A DNA stretch of 22,876 nt from a virus. Position numbers and translations under genes: made by a program. Location: positions 1-22,876 of the IMG/VR virus record IMGVR_UViG_3300021960_000549; one strand, 5' to 3'. The notes under the pieces are model-generated. The model was not told where the DNA came from. It did no database searches and saw only the letters and a list, made by a program, of their open reading frames with translations. This document shows, piece after piece, positions 2,013 through 22,735 of the stretch; positions within the stretch are counted from its first letter, which is position 1, and each line of letters starts with the position of its first letter.

Positions 2013-2377
2013 TATGCCGCCGCCCTTAAAAGTTGTTCGACCGGCTGGCGGCAATGCTTGTAATTGTCGCGTGTCAAATACTTAACATCGCTATAAAAGC
2101 ACAACCAACAACCAAGACCGCTAACAAAAATCTGATCGTCATCAGCTTCGATTTCCAGCCGCGAAATCAAAGCATCCGCATCGAACCGCTTACCGCCAAA
2201 TGGATAAATGCCTTTATGGATGGCACGCACAAAAACAGGCAAGACCTTTTCTTTCAGTTCTTCAACCGATGTTACAGCCACTGGCATTTGGAAACGCTCA
2301 AAAAGCAGATAATCAGAAATCTGATCACCGCTGTTGCCATACATTGCTTCAGCATCATCAAAATAAAATGTAGTCAT
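2012..2377 (-). CDS. hypothetical early protein, 121 aa
   Basis: The product is not recognised. It is acidic at the N-terminus (MTTFYFDDAEAMYG) and has 'GLGCWLCFYSDVKYL' near residues 87-101, with two cysteines in a hydrophobic, aromatic context. It ends in a short basic helix. It has a strong GGGAG ribosome binding site within a leader that is nearly identical to that of the next gene upstream (see the repeat at 2375-2395 and 2589-2608). This suggests common control or duplication of the leader. Confidence 0.65.
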   Translation of the reverse strand: MTTFYFDDAEAMYGNSGDQISDYLLFERFQMPVAVTSVEELKEKVLPVFVRAIHKGIYPFGGKRFDADALISRLEIEADDDQIFVSGLGCWLCFYSDVKYLTRDNYKHCRQPVEQLLRAAA

Positions 2378-2395
2378 TTTGCAATCTCCCGTTTT
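2375..2395. repeat. duplicated translation-start leader, copy 1
   Basis: The 20 bases ending in the start codon of the 121-aa gene are the same as those ending in the start codon of the 65-aa gene at 2591 (copy 2, 2589-2608). On the minus strand each reads AAACGGGAGATTGCAAAATG. The proteins that follow are not alike, so selection or recombination acted on the leader itself. The AAACGGGAG core also precedes the plus-strand nuclease gene at 4999. Confidence 0.8.
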
Positions 2396-2591
2396 AACAT
2401 TCGCTCATTTCAAAAATGCCGCCGTACACGCCGTTGCCGTCGTTATCGTCGAAATCAACCTCGCCCCAACGCAATAATTGATTTAGATCGAAATTGTACC
2501 GCTCACTAACTTCTTTTAACTCATTGGCTACAAAAAGCTGTGTTTCTGATCCCCAAAACCATAAACAATATAATTTTGATGATTTTGACAT
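2394..2591 (-). CDS. hypothetical early protein, 65 aa
   Basis: This small unrecognised protein is acidic in its C-terminal half (VDFDDNDGNGVYGG) and aromatic at its N-terminus (LYCLWFWG). It carries the same leader and GGGAG ribosome binding site as the following gene. A promoter candidate lies upstream at 2625-2664, so this may be the first gene of a secondary transcript running to the terminator at 900-928. Confidence 0.6.
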   Translation of the reverse strand: MSKSSKLYCLWFWGSETQLFVANELKEVSERYNFDLNQLLRWGEVDFDDNDGNGVYGGIFEMSEC

Positions 2592-2608
2592 TTTGCAATC
2601 TCCCGTTT
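2589..2608. repeat. duplicated translation-start leader, copy 2
   Basis: This is the second copy of the 20-base leader described at 2375-2395. It covers the start codon and ribosome binding site of the 65-aa gene and is identical to copy 1 over these 20 bases. Confidence 0.8.
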
Positions 2609-2624
2609 GCTATTTGATTTATTC

Positions 2625-2664
2625 AGCGTATCGTGACCTTTTTAAGCTGTAAACACTTTTTACA
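2625..2664 (-). promoter_or_regulatory. candidate promoter with TGTAAA-N5-TTTACA inverted repeat
   Basis: On the minus strand TTTACA (2648-2653) is followed after exactly 17 bases by TACGCT (2625-2630), a -35/-10 like pair upstream of the 65-aa gene. The -35 element is one arm of a perfect inverted repeat, TGTAAA-N5-TTTACA, at 2648-2664. The same arms, with a 7-base spacer, lie in the main divergent control region at 4931-4949, and on the minus strand both continue into GCT. The -10 match is weak (T, A and final T). Assignment as a promoter is inference, supported mainly by the repeated arrangement. Confidence 0.45.
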
Positions 2665-3391
2665 CCTTTTCCCCAATCTTTTTTAGTTCAGCAATAACGT
2701 CAGGCCTGTTCTGCCGATAATAGCTGCGCATATTCTCCGATAAATTTTTCCATTCTTCGGCGGTTACCATTTTCCGCTGCGGCGGTGTCCAGTCATTAGA
2801 ATGATTGTTATAATTGCCGCTAGACGGCCTAGAATAGCCCGTGACGCGCTTTGGTTTCTTTTCGGCCTCTTTCCTACACCAGTTTTTCCAAAACGCGCTA
2901 CAATCTACATATGCGGCCTTGTTCCCGTTTTGCTGATCCCATAGTCTAATGCTTTCTAGTATGCTATCCGGCTTTAATCCTTTTTCGGTCGCATAGGCTT
3001 TGTCGTCGTCGTTAGGTTGCCAATCGACAACCTTTGTTTTCCTATTATTTCTAGGTAAGGGTTCTTTAAGGGTTATAGGGCTCACTGTGAGCCCCCCCTC
3101 CTGTCTGTGTGACAGGGGTATCACTGTGACAGGGGGTAGGAAAGACAGGTGATATTCTGTAGACCGCCCCGTGCGATAAACCCTTTTTATCAACAGTAAA
3201 TCTTCTAGCTTGCCAATTTTACGGCGAACAGTCGCTTCACTAGCCGCCGTAACCTCGCAAATATGACGGACGGAAGGCCACGCATAGCCGTATGACTGAT
3301 TATGATGATTAGCAATAACGATTAAAACTAGCTTTGCCAAAGGGTCGTCTAAAGGCGTATCCATCGCCCAATCCAACGCCTTAATGCTCAT
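2660..3391 (-). CDS. helix-turn-helix replication initiator-like protein
   Basis: The 243-residue protein starts MSIKALDWAM, then 'PLAKLVLIVIANHHN' and 'AWPSVRHICEVTAASEATVRR', a winged helix-turn-helix of the kind found in phage replication proteins (lambda O or DnaD-like, residues about 10-75). The C-terminal half has 'GLKPDSILESIRLWDQ' followed by an 'FWKNWCRKE' segment (about residues 138-175), matching the helical C-terminal domain common in such initiators and in DnaT-like proteins. A low-complexity basic linker lies between. The expected role is binding the phage origin and helping load a helicase. It overlaps the upstream gene by 11 bases. No iteron cluster was obvious inside the gene. 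A transcription factor is the alternative. Confidence 0.7.
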   Translation of the reverse strand: MSIKALDWAMDTPLDDPLAKLVLIVIANHHNQSYGYAWPSVRHICEVTAASEATVRRKIGKLEDLLLIKRVYRTGRSTEYHLSFLPPVTVIPLSHRQEGGLTVSPITLKEPLPRNNRKTKVVDWQPNDDDKAYATEKGLKPDSILESIRLWDQQNGNKAAYVDCSAFWKNWCRKEAEKKPKRVTGYSRPSSGNYNNHSNDWTPPQRKMVTAEEWKNLSENMRSYYRQNRPDVIAELKKIGEKV

Positions 3392-3656
3392 CGGCTTCGC
3401 CTAAAATCTCGATAGTTAATGCCGCATAGCCGATAATATCTAGCAAGCTGTCTAAATGCTTACAGTCGCTATTAGAAAGCCTCGACATTTTCATCGCAAT
3501 CATTATTGCGCCAAACTGCTCAGGCCTAATATCGACCCCAACGATCATTTCGATCATTCTTGCGGTTTGCTCCCAGTTCTCCCGCAGATCGCCGTAATTC
3601 GCGCCGCGTTCTTCTAGTATTTCTTCAACGCGCTCTAGTGCTTTAGATCGGTTCAT
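3381..3656 (-). CDS. DUF6378-like protein
   Basis: The 91-residue protein has the pattern 'ILEERGANYGD..ENW', then 'QFGAIMIAMKMSRL', then 'HLDSLLDIIGYAALTIEIL', which I recognise as the phage DUF6378 type: a helical domain with conserved ERGxxYG, KxxRL and D-hydrophobic-GY elements. The function of this family is not established; the helical layout recalls MazG-like nucleotide pyrophosphohydrolases, but I do not claim that activity. The ATG at 3656 is chosen for its GAGGAA site upstream; the longer reading to 3671 would overlap the preceding nuclease gene. Confidence 0.6.
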   Translation of the reverse strand: MNRSKALERVEEILEERGANYGDLRENWEQTARMIEMIVGVDIRPEQFGAIMIAMKMSRLSNSDCKHLDSLLDIIGYAALTIEILGEADEH

Positions 3657-3663
3657 TTTTTCC

Positions 3664-4065
3664 TCAAACAAACTTAAATTTTTCTATAGATATTTCTGCC
3701 ATTAGCCCGAAATCGCGCTCTATCCCGCGATCTGTTCTGCCGCCTATTGTGGTTTGAAAATCGACATTGAAATTACAAAACCCTAAACGATCAGTCCAAC
3801 AAACTATTAAAAATGTCGGGATATTAGTTTCAAAGCTAACCTGTCTTGCGTACATCATTTTATGCAAATGCAGTAATGACGTTTTATAGCGATTATGCTG
3901 AAAAGTGCGACACTTGACTTCTGCAAACGCCATTATTTGGCCTGACCTAGTTAAAGCAAAATCTAATTGACTATATTCAGGCAGCTTAACAGCGGTACAT
4001 TTCCACAGCTTGCTAATCCTGTTGATCGCTTGCAGCTCCATTCTTAGGTCGTACTCGGTCTCCAT
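3664..4065 (-). CDS. PD-(D/E)XK-type small nuclease
   Basis: The 133-residue protein shows a PD-(D/E)XK core: an N-terminal helix, then LDFAL with D35, a loop, and 'AFAEVKCR' giving E49-x-K51, followed by a helix (HKMMYARQVSF). A beta strand with 'TFLIVCWTD' comes next. It is the size of small Holliday-junction-resolvase-like or restriction-like nucleases. Substrate is unknown; DNA is most likely. AAGGAG lies directly upstream of the ATG at 4065. The first 53 bases overlap the zinc-ribbon gene upstream in another frame, so those two genes are tightly packed. It is one of four PD-(D/E)XK candidates in the window, and they do not look closely alike. Confidence 0.6.
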   Translation of the reverse strand: METEYDLRMELQAINRISKLWKCTAVKLPEYSQLDFALTRSGQIMAFAEVKCRTFQHNRYKTSLLHLHKMMYARQVSFETNIPTFLIVCWTDRLGFCNFNVDFQTTIGGRTDRGIERDFGLMAEISIEKFKFV

Positions 4066-4201
4066 TTACCACTCCTTTGTGTTCCATTTTACATATCGCG
4101 CATATATATAGATCGCCCTTTATTTTTAATTTCCCACGACATTTCGGGCATAAACCCAATTCATATAAACGCTCAAATGTGCCGTCACCTTTTTGGATCA
4201 T
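4013..4201 (-). CDS. small zinc-ribbon protein
   Basis: This is a protein of about 62 residues with a classic zinc ribbon: CPKC, 12 residues, CAIC, in a 'GKLKIKGDLYICAIC' setting, followed by a basic tail (DRVRPKNG). Such minimal ribbons bind nucleic acid or serve as protein interaction modules; the role here is not known. Two starts are possible, ATG at 4201 and GTG at 4207, with AAGG upstream of both; I chose the ATG. It overlaps the upstream gene by 17 bases and the downstream nuclease gene by 53 bases. Confidence 0.6.
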   Translation of the reverse strand: MIQKGDGTFERLYELGLCPKCRGKLKIKGDLYICAICKMEHKGVVNGDRVRPKNGAASDQQD

Positions 4202-4442
4202 AATCACGCAGCCTTGGCAAAAATGGTATGACGTTATGACGTTTTAACGCTGTTGCTATATAATCGGCTCTAATAACGCCTAAAGGCTCAACCCCGTCGT
4301 CGGCATTGCGCGGAACAACGCGCACCTCGATGCCGGCTTTGCCTTTTACGATTTCAACTGTTAAATCTTTGACATCAATCCAAGTTTCAGTCGAAATCAT
4401 TACATATTCGCGGTCGCCAACAGTATTCATATTTCTACTCAT
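4185..4442 (-). CDS. hypothetical early protein, 85 aa
   Basis: The product is not recognised. It looks like a small beta-rich domain (residues about 12-48: YVMISTETWIDVKDLTVEIV and 'GIEVRVVPRN') followed by a helix 'RADYIATALKRHN' and a proline-containing basic tail. AAAGG lies upstream of the ATG at normal spacing. It follows the first nuclease gene of the operon by 14 bases and overlaps the zinc-ribbon gene. Confidence 0.6.
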   Translation of the reverse strand: MSRNMNTVGDREYVMISTETWIDVKDLTVEIVKGKAGIEVRVVPRNADDGVEPLGVIRADYIATALKRHNVIPFLPRLRDYDPKR

Positions 4443-4998: not shown

Positions 4999-5847
4999 AT
5001 GACAAAACGGGAAATTAGCAAAGAATGGAAAGCGGCTGGTTTTACGCATCTTTCTGCTAGTCAATTAAACCCCTCGGTGAGCAATTGGCTTTTCAGATAT
5101 GTGTATTTGTCGCCAGAAGAACGCCGCAGTATTGGCGTTGGGGAACGCGCTGCTATAGGTACATCTGTGCATAACGCGGTGCAGTCAATAGTGTGTCACG
5201 GGGCTGATATTGATGAAGCTATCGAAGCCGCACAAATCGCGTTTGACTTTCATCCAGCCGATGAAGATGACGTTCTGCGCGTGAAGTTTCGTGAGTGTAT
5301 ACCAGCAATGGTGCATCAAGGCGTGAATGTTTGTGTAGAAAACGGCTTTATCGGCGCGGTCGATGAAGAGCGAATTGAATGTTGGTTAGATGACGTGAAC
5401 GTGCCGATATTAGGTTTTGTCGATTTGCTTGTCGAAGGCTTAATGTTTGGAGAGATGAAAACCAAAGCACCGCGCAAGACTAAGCTGCTTAAAGATGGCT
5501 CACAAGGCTGGGCAAAAGCAACACTGCCTAAAAAGCCGGAGTTTCCGCATATCTGCCAAGCGGCTATTTACTGGCACGCGTTGCGGGTTACGCCATCAAT
5601 AATCTATATTGCCGAACACGATGCGGTGATTTTTAACGCTTACAATTGCGAAGAATTGCAAGCAGACGGGATAGCGTACGCTTTAAATGAAATGCGGCAA
5701 AAAGCGTTGATCCGGCAAAATCTATTGAAGGTTAGCACCGATCCTAAAGTGCTAGCATCAATTACCGATCCCGATTGGGGTCATATGTACCAATGGAATA
5801 TGAAAGAAGAGTGGCTGGAAAGGGCTAAAGAATTATGGAAAATATAA
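4999..5847 (+). CDS. RecB/Cas4-type PD-(D/E)XK exonuclease
   Basis: The 282-residue protein carries the ordered motifs of the RecB/Cas4-like PD-(D/E)XK branch: 'LSASQLN' near residue 18, 'GTSVHNAVQ' with H58, 'LGFVDLLVE' with D142, 'GEMKTK' with E152-x-K154, and 'HICQAAIYW' with the Q187xxxY191 motif. All catalytic positions are present. The next gene, overlapping by 13 bases, is an ERF single-strand annealing protein. This makes an exonuclease-annealase recombination pair likely, as in lambda Red, with this nuclease as the Exo counterpart. It has GGGAG before its ATG in a leader (AAACGGGAG) shared with two minus-strand early genes. No four-cysteine iron-sulfur cluster pattern as in Cas4 is evident. 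Confidence 0.8.
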   Translation: MTKREISKEWKAAGFTHLSASQLNPSVSNWLFRYVYLSPEERRSIGVGERAAIGTSVHNAVQSIVCHGADIDEAIEAAQIAFDFHPADEDDVLRVKFRECIPAMVHQGVNVCVENGFIGAVDEERIECWLDDVNVPILGFVDLLVEGLMFGEMKTKAPRKTKLLKDGSQGWAKATLPKKPEFPHICQAAIYWHALRVTPSIIYIAEHDAVIFNAYNCEELQADGIAYALNEMRQKALIRQNLLKVSTDPKVLASITDPDWGHMYQWNMKEEWLERAKELWKI

Positions 5848-6428
5848 AACTACACGCGGCATTAGCCGACGTCAGACGCGCCGCATCTGTCGGCAAGTCT
5901 GGCAAGAACCCGATGTTCAAAAGCGAATACTCGACATTAGGCGACGTTTTAACCGCGCTAGACATATTGCCAGAATACGGGCTGTCATTCGCGCAGTATT
6001 TTCAAGATGGCGCGCTAGTGACTACAGTAGTGCATTTAGAAACCGGCGAAAAGATTAGCAGCTTTTTGCAAATTAGCCCCGAAAAAGATACACCGCAGTC
6101 ATTTATTAGCTGCGTTACATATTACCGGCGGGCAAGTTTGATGACGATGTTCGGATTGAATGCAAGTGATGATGATGGTAATCTAGCCTCTGGCTCTGGC
6201 GCGGTTCCCTCCCGTCCGCAGCCTCAGCCAAAGAGGCCAGTCGCTGCATCCACTCCGGCGGCTGGCCTCGCCTCCAATGATATTTTAGCAGAAAAATTAG
6301 ATGCCTGTAAAAGCGTTCGTGATGTCAACGCGCTTTATACAACGCTGTATGGGGCAGGCGGCATAAAATGCCCCGATGATCAATTGCAAATGTTTAAACA
6401 ACGGAAGGAAGAACTGCAAAATGACTGA
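5835..6428 (+). CDS. erf: ERF-family single-strand annealing recombinase
   Basis: The 197-residue protein has the ERF core: an N-terminal 'LHAALADVRRAA', then 'YSTLGDVLTAL' and the diagnostic 'SCVTYYRRASLMTMFGL' followed by 'SDDDGN' at about residues 93-115, equivalent to the family's TYxRRYxLxxxxGL...DDDG. A proline- and alanine-rich linker (about 120-147) leads to a C-terminal helical domain (147-195) of unknown partner specificity. ERF proteins anneal complementary single strands during phage recombination and genome circularisation. Its gene overlaps the upstream nuclease by 13 bases and the downstream small gene by 8, so the products are probably made together. Confidence 0.85.
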   Translation: MENIKLHAALADVRRAASVGKSGKNPMFKSEYSTLGDVLTALDILPEYGLSFAQYFQDGALVTTVVHLETGEKISSFLQISPEKDTPQSFISCVTYYRRASLMTMFGLNASDDDGNLASGSGAVPSRPQPQPKRPVAASTPAAGLASNDILAEKLDACKSVRDVNALYTTLYGAGGIKCPDDQLQMFKQRKEELQND

Positions 6429-18993: not shown

Positions 18994-21246
18994 TTATGCG
19001 TCGATGTCAAGACACGCAGCAAATGACTGTGCGTGACGAACAGCAATGTCCAGCTCTTGCATTACGCGGATACGTACTGCGCCGGTTGAACCGGCTGTGT
19101 ATGGATCCACAAGTACATCTGGTGTGCTAAAGAAGCCCATCATCAGTTGGCTAAAGTCACCAAAGATCATTGCAGAAAGTGCGGTTCCAGTGCCTTTGGT
19201 CAGATCAGATGGAACATTGTTGGTTATTGAAAGATTATAACCATACAAGCTGTTCCAAGGTGCATCTAACAGCATAACGCTATCTGTTGACGCAACCTTT
19301 GCAGTTGAAGCCATTAGTGACTTAACCTTTGGATTGGTCAGATAAGCAAGCGTGTTGCCGTTAATAGCAGCATTGTCAACTTCAACTTCTTTAACCAAGT
19401 TGACAATATCATCCCAAGCAATCGCGCCACCGTTTGTGCCAATTGCAACTGAACCGATACCGGATGTGCCAGTGATGCCGGTTGGCTCGTTAGAGCCGCC
19501 ACCTTCAATCGCAACATCTTCAATTTTTTGTGCGATTGCGTTCAGCAGATCATCACGAACAATCTGCTCAACCGATGGATCAGACTGGATCATCAGCAAA
19601 CGAGAAATGTCGGTGAATGCTCCAAGTGATTTTGGAGACATTGTGATTTGCGAAAACACAGCGTTCACCTCAGATGTCGCACCATTCTCAGCAACGAAAC
19701 CGGCAGATACGCCAGTTGCTAGCTTTGGAATAGCAACATCGCCACGCAGACCAGTCATAAAGCGTGCGCCAAGCTCGTTAAACACCAAACGTGACCGCAG
19801 GGCATCAACAAACTGATCACCAAGATGGTCTGTGCCGACTAAGTGACCACCGGCTGTAGCTGTGCCAACAGTCAGGTCACGACGACCGCCCCAGAAGCTA
19901 TCTGGCGCATAAAAGCCGCGTGCCTCGCGTCCAGTGCGCTTTGCGATTTCTTCTGAAACCTCGCGCTCAAGACCATTTAGGCCAGAGCCATTCACCAAGC
20001 CGCGAACAGCTTTGATGAACGAATAGTCGCGCTGCTCTTTAGCTGACATATCAACCGCACCGGCTGACTGCTCAAGTGGCTTACCTTCGCCGATTGCGTC
20101 CAGCAATGTTGCGCGGAATTGTGCAACAGACTGACCTTCGCCGATAGCTTTATCGGCTAGATCACGCCGATTGTGTTTAACAGCAAGATTGATGATCTCG
20201 CTGGCATTCTTTTGGAAATCGCGCTTGGCTGCTTCAGCGGCTGCTTCGCGGATTTCGTCGTGATTTACTTCAGACATTTTAGGTGTCTCCTTTTGTTTAA
20301 TCACTGGTTCAACAAATTCAGCTTTGCGGTTCACGCCGACACCAGCGTCAGCGGGAACGGATACAATGCTGGCTTCATACGGAACCCACGAGCTAATAGC
20401 GACCGTCCCGTCGCGTTCATTCTTTTGTTCCATTTCGCGGATTTGGTATCCGATGCTGACGTTGCTTCGAATACCGTCCTTGACGTCTTGATAAACCTCT
20501 TGTGCCAGCGCGCTTTTTCCAAAGCGAACCACTGACCGCAACTTGCGATCAGCTTGATCCAAATAGGTACGTTCAATAACGCCAATCTGCTTTGTCAGAT
20601 CGTGATCCAGCAATAATGGCGCGTGGCCGCTGTCCAATCTTGACAAATCTACCGCGCCATCGCTATGACGCAAAACCTCTAAACCAAAAGAACGCTCAAC
20701 GGGTTCTTCAGATGAAATCGACATTCTGACGCGGCGGTCATCTTCCTCGACCATATCCGCTGCGCGCGCGCGAAACACAAGTTCGCCACGATCAAGCCGA
20801 TCTTCATTATGTGTTTGTTCGTTTTCCATTGGTGCATTATCCACCAATTCATCGCTATTTTCAATTGGTTCAATTTCAGACATTTCAATGCCCCTTTCGC
20901 CTTCATCTATTCGGTCAAGCGCAGCATCTTTTGCCCTTGCCCACGTTTGACCGGCATCGCCGCCCCACGCTGCCCACGCAACGCGACCTTTGGACGGATA
21001 GCCATCTTCACCGGCAGAAAAACCTTCGGCTTGCTTGTCGACCTCGTGCCGACTAAAAAAGCTGTGCATCCGGCGCACTGTATCGGCAGATAGCTCTTGC
21101 CGGTTAGCCAGTTGTGTTGCACGCGCTACCGCAACATCAGTGCCGCCTTGCTTGCCCTCTTCGCGCCACTTTTTGAATTTACGAGCTTCCGCTGCCATAC
21201 CGTCGGTTGGCTTTAGGCTGATTTCAACGCCTTTATACGTCGCCAT
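18994..21246 (-). CDS. prohead protease-major capsid protein fusion
   Basis: This 750-residue polyprotein has three parts. Residues 1-110 are a domain with 'TDVAVARATQLANRQELSADT' and 'GYPSKGRVAWAAWGGDAGQTW', known from phage protease genes. Residues about 155-310 form an HK97-type prohead protease: H215 in 'LLLDHD', S264 in 'SNVSIGY' and E291 in 'PYEASIVSVPAD' are the likely catalytic residues. Residues 324-750 are an HK97-fold major capsid protein with an N-terminal helical scaffold (delta) region (to about 445) and 'GGHLVGTDHLGDQFVDALR' starting the shell domain. It overlaps the portal gene by 14 bases. Two internal in-frame ATGs, at 20883 (residue 122) and 20277 (residue 324), have strong ribosome binding sites, so protease-capsid and capsid-only products are likely too. 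The first ATG has a weaker site. Confidence 0.9.
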   Translation of the reverse strand: MATYKGVEISLKPTDGMAAEARKFKKWREEGKQGGTDVAVARATQLANRQELSADTVRRMHSFFSRHEVDKQAEGFSAGEDGYPSKGRVAWAAWGGDAGQTWARAKDAALDRIDEGERGIEMSEIEPIENSDELVDNAPMENEQTHNEDRLDRGELVFRARAADMVEEDDRRVRMSISSEEPVERSFGLEVLRHSDGAVDLSRLDSGHAPLLLDHDLTKQIGVIERTYLDQADRKLRSVVRFGKSALAQEVYQDVKDGIRSNVSIGYQIREMEQKNERDGTVAISSWVPYEASIVSVPADAGVGVNRKAEFVEPVIKQKETPKMSEVNHDEIREAAAEAAKRDFQKNASEIINLAVKHNRRDLADKAIGEGQSVAQFRATLLDAIGEGKPLEQSAGAVDMSAKEQRDYSFIKAVRGLVNGSGLNGLEREVSEEIAKRTGREARGFYAPDSFWGGRRDLTVGTATAGGHLVGTDHLGDQFVDALRSRLVFNELGARFMTGLRGDVAIPKLATGVSAGFVAENGATSEVNAVFSQITMSPKSLGAFTDISRLLMIQSDPSVEQIVRDDLLNAIAQKIEDVAIEGGGSNEPTGITGTSGIGSVAIGTNGGAIAWDDIVNLVKEVEVDNAAINGNTLAYLTNPKVKSLMASTAKVASTDSVMLLDAPWNSLYGYNLSITNNVPSDLTKGTGTALSAMIFGDFSQLMMGFFSTPDVLVDPYTAGSTGAVRIRVMQELDIAVRHAQSFAACLDIDA
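20287..20294 (-). promoter_or_regulatory. internal ribosome binding site for capsid-only product
   Basis: AAAAGGAG lies 9 bases before the in-frame ATG at 20277 (MSEVNHDE), which would give a 427-residue major capsid protein, the usual length for an HK97-type subunit with its scaffold domain. It is one of the best ribosome binding sites in the window, although it lies within a coding region. Confidence 0.75.
20891..20897 (-). promoter_or_regulatory. internal ribosome binding site before the protease domain
   Basis: AAAGGGG lies 7 bases before the in-frame ATG at 20883 (residue 122, MSEIEPIE). Translation from here would drop the N-terminal domain and give protease plus capsid protein. Confidence 0.6.
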
Positions 21247-22735
21247 CTTTTTTGCTCACTTCTTCCTCTGATAGCTTTACGCCGCCAAAACTAGTTAATC
21301 CACCGCCAAACGGCTGGAAGGCTGTCTCAATTCCAAACCTTTCGGCAAGCTCTCTTTCCCGATTAACCTGTTCAAACACTTCTTCAGTGTCACGCCCATA
21401 TTGGCTGTGCACGTCTTGCAGACTGACAATGCCGTTTTGCAAAGCTGCAACACTTGCGCTAATTTCTTTTGACGGGTCAACCCAAGCAAAGCCGCGTGGC
21501 CGGTAAATTACTTGATCTGCAAACAGGTCATATTTCCCCATCGGCAAATTAACGCGGCCAACAGTAATAGCCATTTCTAGCCAAGCGCGATAAACCGGAT
21601 CAATAAACTGGTCGATCATAAATTGCTGCACCATCTTAAAATGGTCACGATCTTCAATTGTGCCTTGCCGGATGCTGCTATAGCTAACGCCTTCAAGGTT
21701 GTTTGCCAGCGATACATAGCTGACCCCAAGGCCTGACGCGATCCCGCGCAATATACCCTTTTCAAACTCCGCAAAGCTGTCAGTCGGGTTTTGCGGGTCA
21801 AAGGCGGTAAATGACATTCCAGCCGGTAACTGCGTAAACGTGGCTGGCTCCGCTGACATTATTGGCGCGTTATTGTCGTAATCGTCGCCGACAAAGCCAT
21901 CGCCCTCTGGGCTGGTGAAAAAGCCCATCTTTGATGCGGCAACCCGCGCATTTACAAGCGTCGCCTCTTCATAGCCGTCCAGCATCTTTAAACGGGTCAG
22001 CACGTTGCTCATCCAAGGCACGCCACGGGTTTGCCCAGCGCGGTCTTGCAAATAGCAGTGGATAATCTCACTAGCCGGCACAATCTTGTGATGACGCTTT
22101 GTCTTGCTGCCATACCCTTGATCGTGATGCGGGTGATCTTCAAACAGATAATAGTTTAGCGGCTTGCCGGTGCGCCGATCCAACTCCACGCCCATACGCA
22201 CTTCATTGCCGTTTGCTAATCGTGCGTCATAGCCCTCATCGAGATAGTCAGCTTCCAGAAACTTTAGCGAAAAGCCAAATGGGTTTCCGGCTGGGTTCTT
22301 GATTTTTTGGATTAGCACTTCACCATCGCGTGCCAGCGTTTCCATAAACAGCCGCTGCGCTTGCACCCACGATACGCGGCCATCTACTGTGCAAAAACCA
22401 GCCCGACCCCACTGTTGCCACGCTTGTTCGATGATGCGATTGCCTACGCTGTCTAGTGAATTATCGTCATTGCGCTTGCGAACCTGTATTCGCACGCCAT
22501 TTGCGCCGACCACGTTTGTCGACATAATCTGCAAATATCTTTTGGCATATGGATGGTTACGGCTGATTTCGCGGCAACGATCCCGCAAAACGCGCAATGA
22601 TGGCTTAATTTCGCTGTCCGCCGATCGGCTGCTAGATACAAAATCACTGAATAATCGGCCAGTGTCAGCCCCGTGAAACGCCCGAACCGCCTTGCGTGGC
22701 TGGGGCTTCGCTTTGAAAAAGTCAAAGATGCCCAT
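21233..22735 (-). CDS. portal protein, lambda type
   Basis: The 500-residue protein matches the lambda B portal family: 'LRDRCREISRNHPYAKRYLQ' and 'VVGANGVRIQVR' at the N-terminus, 'DGEVLIQKI' in the middle, 'IIHCYLQDRAGQTRGVPWMS' (the conserved RxGQxRGxPW element), and 'NNLEGVSYSSIRQGTIEDRD' near residue 350. Twelve copies form the ring through which DNA is packaged and the tail attached. The gene starts with ATG at 22735, overlapping a TAA in another frame, and lies between the gpW-position gene and the protease-capsid gene. The end is acidic and basic (EEEVSKKDGDV). Confidence 0.9.
   Translation of the reverse strand: MGIFDFFKAKPQPRKAVRAFHGADTGRLFSDFVSSSRSADSEIKPSLRVLRDRCREISRNHPYAKRYLQIMSTNVVGANGVRIQVRKRNDDNSLDSVGNRIIEQAWQQWGRAGFCTVDGRVSWVQAQRLFMETLARDGEVLIQKIKNPAGNPFGFSLKFLEADYLDEGYDARLANGNEVRMGVELDRRTGKPLNYYLFEDHPHHDQGYGSKTKRHHKIVPASEIIHCYLQDRAGQTRGVPWMSNVLTRLKMLDGYEEATLVNARVAASKMGFFTSPEGDGFVGDDYDNNAPIMSAEPATFTQLPAGMSFTAFDPQNPTDSFAEFEKGILRGIASGLGVSYVSLANNLEGVSYSSIRQGTIEDRDHFKMVQQFMIDQFIDPVYRAWLEMAITVGRVNLPMGKYDLFADQVIYRPRGFAWVDPSKEISASVAALQNGIVSLQDVHSQYGRDTEEVFEQVNRERELAERFGIETAFQPFGGGLTSFGGVKLSEEEVSKKDGDV

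Follow-up and report, generated by a model that had tools for sequence, protein, structure and literature searches.

The protease gene C of phage lambda contains a scaffold gene, Nu3, nested in the same frame (Shaw and Murialdo, 1980, cited in PMC8508860), and in the herpesvirus UL26/UL26.5 system the protease-scaffold form (VP21) amounts to about 10% of the scaffold (PMC12474303). In HK97 the protease and the major capsid protein (MCP) are encoded by two separate genes, gp4 and gp5, whereas the MD8-like Pseudomonas phages carry protease, scaffold and MCP in a single gene, for which the paper mentions no internal start (PMC8508860). A "tripartite capsid gene" is also named for Gifsy-2 in the papers that cite its description.

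The locus described here, from a marine phage, lies in a window of 22,876 bases that is the whole (positions 1–22,876) of the virus record IMGVR_UViG_3300021960_000549. As in lambda C/Nu3, an internal in-frame start (site 2, codon 324), preceded by a ribosome-binding site and conserved beyond chance, is found at the border between protease and scaffold, and the putative inner product shares its C-terminus with the outer one. In lambda the inner product consists of scaffold alone, and gpE, the MCP, has a gene of its own; here delta and capsid would form one inner product, and the protease is of the S78 rather than the gpC type. Since site 2 starts a delta scaffold fused to the MCP, the design is C/Nu3-like with the capsid attached; because the inner product includes the MCP, it is a variant and not a member of C/Nu3 proper. 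The first-pass annotation had taken lambda as a precedent for nested starts but not for protease with capsid; the precedent applies and is closer than it claimed, site 2 being the start of the delta scaffold. The proposed minority of full-length protease form, the inner product in excess and the shared C-terminus also recall UL26/UL26.5. The UL26.5 inner product is made from its own transcript, whereas here a putative internal ribosome-binding site would serve, and the herpesvirus capsid protein is separate whereas here it is part of the inner product.

Additionally, as in HK97 gp4/gp5, an S78 protease would act on a delta-MCP precursor of HK97 fold, but from one gene instead of two. The union of protease, scaffold and capsid in one gene is shared with MD8 and, as far as the citing papers describe it, with Gifsy-2, and the ClpP relatives tested below share an SD-ATG (an ATG preceded by a Shine-Dalgarno sequence, SD) in the linker; the Gifsy-2/MD8 protease is ClpP-like, whereas Pfam finds S78 only in this gene. 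The phrog_617 fusions of R4C, RcRhea, VP882, phiHAP-1, S-CBS1/3 and the Roseobacter CRP phages share this S78-delta-MCP gene, its place beside the portal gene and its internal ATG; their N-terminal modules differ, and their annotations say no more than "major capsid protein" or "major head protein". The R4C structure paper makes no mention of a protease (PMC10276861).

Layout of the fused gene

The fusion matches phrog_617 ("major head protein") over residues 161–745 (E=2e-132) and phrog_2859 over residues 15–109 in the PHROG search, and Pfam places S78 at 197–308 and Phage_capsid at 474–743 (Table 1). As in phrog_617-type fusions, S78 and an HK97-fold capsid stand in one frame with the conserved protease His and Ser, and the gene order is portal, fusion, then connector and tail genes. 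H215 and S264 of the protease are invariant in the alignments, and we take them, by family knowledge, to be the catalytic His and Ser. The delta domain is expected to be cleaved off during maturation, and the best solved structural match of the capsid domain is the capsid of the marine siphophage R4C (8gta). The AlphaFold model of the fusion, whose overall pTM is low (0.36), contains two long low-confidence linkers, residues 118–166 and 309–333, and its first delta-domain helix begins at residue 329. Both internal ATGs thus lie, as the first-pass annotation had described, at domain borders and behind good SDs, and both fall within the predicted linkers.

Table 1. Features of the fused gene and its surroundings; positions are those of the window and anti-SD duplex energies are in kcal/mol.
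Feature	Position	Strand	Basis
Portal protein gene (phrog_21), directly upstream, 14-nt overlap with fusion start	21233..22735	-	PHROG
Fused N-terminal module + S78 prohead protease + delta (scaffold) + HK97-fold MCP, 750 aa	18994..21246	-	Pfam, PHROG
Weak SD region of full-length start, GAGGAAGAAGTGAGCAAAAAAG-ATG, overlaps portal 3' end	21247..21262	-	anti-SD energy -4.2
N-terminal module, residues 1–121, optional, phrog_2859-like	20884..21246	-	PHROG + relatives
SD of site 1, AAAGGGG, 7 nt before ATG	20891..20897	-	anti-SD energy -7.0
Internal ATG, codon 122 (site 1), A at 20883	20881..20883	-	sequence
S78 prohead protease domain, about residues 168–308	20323..20745	-	Pfam, alignments, AlphaFold model
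SD of site 2, AAAAGGAG, 9 nt before ATG	20287..20294	-	anti-SD energy -8.7
Internal ATG, codon 324 (site 2), A at 20277; putative start of free delta-MCP, 427 aa	20275..20277	-	conservation
Delta/scaffold domain, residues 324 to about 465; helical, variable	19852..20277	-	model + structure comparison
Mature capsid domain, about residues 466–750, HK97 fold	18997..19851	-	Pfam + structure match

While portal and protease are conserved, the N-terminal end of these fusions, which lies between them, forms a hypervariable cassette region. Among the window and four relatives (L032, L059, L025, L076) it holds a phrog_2859-like module, an M-x-RHI module or almost nothing; the L032 cassette includes a Hva1_TUDOR-like domain just under the Pfam cut-off. 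Elsewhere, the N-terminal module is found on proteases for prohead or capsid maturation in the archaeal virus HGTV-1, Pontimonas phiPsal1 and Actinomycetia phage DSL-LC01, and Vibrio phages and PaBG have it in proteins of other kinds.

Two candidate internal starts of different standing

Site 2 lies in the context aaacAAAAGGAGacacctaaaATG (codon 324 region, AAAAGGAGacacctaaaATG) and site 1 in gaaGGCGAAAGGGGcattgaaATG (codon 122 region, gcGAAAGGGGcattgaaATG). Of the three starts, the full-length one has the weakest anti-SD duplex and site 2 the strongest, and in a 99%-identical copy of the gene (L005) the site 2 SD ranks first among 19 in-frame ATGs and first among 42 in-frame ATG, GTG and TTG codons. 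Its SD region is also more accessible than those of control ATGs (0.60 vs 0.40 unpaired). A short hairpin surrounds the site 2 AUG (window positions 20258–20307) and recurs in homologues such as L006, L162, L169 and L166 with stems that differ in sequence (GGUC-AAAAU-GACC, GGAC-AAAAU-GUCU, GGCC-AAAAU-GGC); the mean folding z around site 2 is -0.66 over 37 representatives, and the hairpin could be a modulator of initiation or chance.

Conservation was followed in a first homologue set of 80 viral contigs (76–99% identity), 3 bacterial contigs and 23 isolate phages (about 30–47%), and in a second, partly overlapping set of 80 viral contigs. The site 2 ATG is present in all 105 fused genes of the first set, the most distant of which share only about 30% identity; in the second scan, the genes that cover site 2 are all fused and all have the ATG. 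In an alignment of 106 proteins the Met column is occupied in 104 of 105, the Met of PT1 and Arya falling one column off; among 26 diverse members the next best Met column reaches 15, which leaves site 2 as the only near-invariant Met of the family. The column entropy is 0.24 bit against about 2–3.5 bits for the hypervariable linker around it.

The SD is conserved along with the ATG. At site 2 the anti-SD energy averages -7.0 kcal/mol across 102 distinct upstream haplotypes; for 1976 further in-frame ATGs in these genes the average is -2.0, and -5 kcal/mol is reached by 87% of the haplotypes vs 11% of those ATGs. Only 8-mers that begin between -16 and -11 carry the signal, and positions -40 to -20 of these linkers lack it, so a purine-rich linker composition does not simply account for it. 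Nominal p-values overstate this evidence because the sequences are related, and the fair test is that on clusters: taking one member from each cluster at 60% identity, 17 of 21 reach -5, whereas 10,000 draws of random in-frame ATGs averaged 2.7 and never exceeded 9. The SD is kept while the residues that it encodes vary (KETPKM, KEVKM, EKVIM, SKENTM, QRSDPM), although synonymous shuffling yields a mean z of only about -1.3, which means that codon choice adds to the signal and that part of it is carried by the choice of amino acids. Chance SD-like codons were ruled out by the in-frame ATG controls, the synonymous shuffles and the position profile. FoX3 and MQ-4 have a weak SD at site 2, and three cyanophages, S-CBS3 (L089), S-CBS1 (L090) and S-LBS1 (L093), retain the ATG within a linker rich in Pro and Ala but have no SD. 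Cyanobacteria can initiate translation without an SD, and the SD-less ATGs of these three phages fit such a mode of initiation.

Since an ATG with a correctly spaced SD is deeply conserved in a linker that otherwise changes freely, the sequence comparisons strongly support codon 324 as an independent start for the capsid protein; the view that site 2 exceeds chance was upheld overwhelmingly. A split relative agrees: a Reyranella MAG (L004) encodes the MCP on its own, as a 434-aa protein with Met1 aligned to site 2, and the S78 protease lies in a separate frame after it. The prophages of this bacterium (L004, L192–L193) have an inverted order, MCP first and the separate protease second.

The standing of codon 122 is different. 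The predicted N-terminus of its product is MSEIEPIENSDEL, (M)SEIEPIENSDELVDNAPMENEQTHNEDR, which would read SEIEP once Met is removed. In a relative without the N-terminal module (L021, 99% identical over 118–750) the site 1 ATG is the gene start, and in relatives of the L021/L044 type the portal stop overlaps it (ATGTCTGA). On the other hand, the ATG is missing in many relatives that bear the module; others have further small inserts after the module, and site 1 is lost where such inserts replace the border, in which case other SD-ATGs often precede the protease, many of them at an M-x-RHI motif. The chances are about even that site 2 is real while site 1 is unused, a leftover of the gene start seen in module-less relatives, and that the gene gives two products and not three. 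The use of this ATG as gene start beside the portal stop and its absence from many module-bearing relatives favor that reading; the good SD in this phage (-7.0), however, does not, nor does the enrichment of SD-ATGs in the module/protease linkers. Across the wider family such SD-ATGs are enriched at this border at shifting positions, and the best linker ATG beats the control windows in most of 33 linker clusters, with a mean fraction of 0.13 vs the 0.5 expected (a best-of-several measure). Additionally, in CRP-823 (L085) the module (1498–2214) and the protease-MCP (2174–4426) are separate overlapping frames, which are fused in its close relatives CRP-821/822, and this too speaks against an unused site. 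Site 1 appears moderately beyond chance in this lineage, and a functional start at codon 122 is plausible. Of the nested starts that the first-pass annotation proposed, then, codon 324 is strongly supported by conservation and by the split relative, a comparison of the kind that it had suggested, whereas codon 122 stands in part, being the gene start of a module-less relative but lost in many that carry the module.

Proposed nested products and the protease dose

From these patterns it is highly probable that the one gene yields nested products with a common C-terminus, the inner one being the scaffold-capsid protein. As site 2 begins an HK97-type delta scaffold fused to MCP, the nested product would be a normal delta-MCP. 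The sequences establish where the sites lie, how they are spaced and how deeply they are conserved; initiation itself, the ratio of the products, co-assembly and cleavage are what we infer from this arrangement. Few ribosomes would enter at the weak first start and little full fusion would be made, while direct entry of ribosomes at the codon 324 SD-ATG would supply an excess of delta-MCP, the ordinary scaffold-capsid precursor; in this phage the codon 122 start would probably add a protease-delta-MCP without the N-terminal module. The fusion molecules would join the procapsid through their MCP part, so that a limited dose of protease would be built into it, and there the protease would cut off the delta domains and free itself. 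The virus would thus probably make many shell proteins per protease, although an initiation rate is not quantitatively predictable from SD strength.

It is improbable that the full fusion is the only product, cut by its protease before or during assembly, and that the internal ATGs are relics of separate genes. The site 2 SD-ATG does resemble the start of a formerly separate gene, the free MCP of L004 starts there, and HK97-type proteases are known to cut themselves as well as the delta domain. A relic would decay, however, yet all members retain site 2, even those that share only about 30% identity, in the midst of a linker whose sequence has been entirely replaced; it was on this deep conservation plus linker turnover that the relic reading was rejected. 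The space inside the procapsid also speaks against it. The R4C capsid has 11 pentons and 60 hexons (PMC10276861), that is, 415 MCPs. By a rough estimate, 415 full fusions in a T=7 head, with about 465 inner residues each, would bring in roughly 21 MDa, whereas the site 2 product would need about 6.5 MDa. The larger mass would presumably come close to, or exceed, what the interior of an HK97-size procapsid can hold. Mature virions cannot discriminate between the two readings, since both products lose their delta domain, and the solved R4C chain covers only residues 362–629 of the annotated product. It is most improbable that the SD-like sequence merely pauses ribosomes at the border and aids folding with no initiation, since its place at a domain border would suit pausing, yet pausing has no need for an ATG at SD spacing and here the ATG is invariant and the SD peak falls at the exact start spacing.

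The pattern of a putative nested scaffold-capsid start extends to fusions with another protease. ClpP-MCP fusions (L194–L196, 80 viral loci and Pseudomonas phage F10) were tested in the same way, leaving out a frameshift in the ClpP fusion of PAN70, which falls within a homopolymer run and may reflect an error in sequencing. An in-frame ATG occurs in the linker between protease and capsid in each of the 63 ClpP-MCP fused genes. When these are grouped at 65% identity into 25 clusters, the ATG closest to the conserved column averages an anti-SD energy of -5.7 vs -2.3 for controls, 21 of the 25 reach -5, and the position profile likewise peaks at SD spacing. In F10 a stronger SD-ATG (-11.4) sits within the ClpP domain, at residue 185 of the annotated gene, so that SD strength alone is no marker of the border there. 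A made-up delta-like peptide used as query returned no matches.

The design looks convergent because unrelated ClpP-MCP fusions share the arrangement of an SD-ATG in the linker; the S78 and ClpP forms may accordingly be of separate origin, the alternative being recombination of the delta-MCP half. We consider it likely that an internal scaffold-capsid start is a general rule of protease-capsid fusion genes, that it is maintained by selection and arose independently at least for the S78 and the unrelated ClpP-like proteases, and that single-gene heads set the dose of protease by translation initiation. Single-gene fusions are already known, but the general pattern of internal starts is apparently unreported: a literature search, with most subscription papers and the key Gifsy-2 paper outside its scope, found no earlier report of a nested MCP start in protease-capsid fusions.

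Genes that fuse a protease to the capsid protein are widespread, and annotations treat the product of each as one protein of 600–1000 residues; the internal start signal was found in hundreds of related genes. Were each shell subunit to bring its own protease, 415 copies would have to be accommodated in a T=7 head, a number hard to fit or control, and a conserved internal start would be a simple answer. It would correct the annotated capsid start in hundreds of genomes, with a bearing on mass-spectrometry and structural work on these heads, and the pattern is directly testable in R4C, RcRhea, F10 and Gifsy-2-like phages. The nested protease/scaffold logic of lambda and the herpesviruses would thereby be extended to the capsid protein itself.

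Elsewhere in the window, a plus-strand ORF of 282 aa (4999–5847) has a weak match to phrog_1706 ("CRISPR/Cas system associated"), and it adjoins an Erf-like ssDNA annealing protein at 5835–6428.
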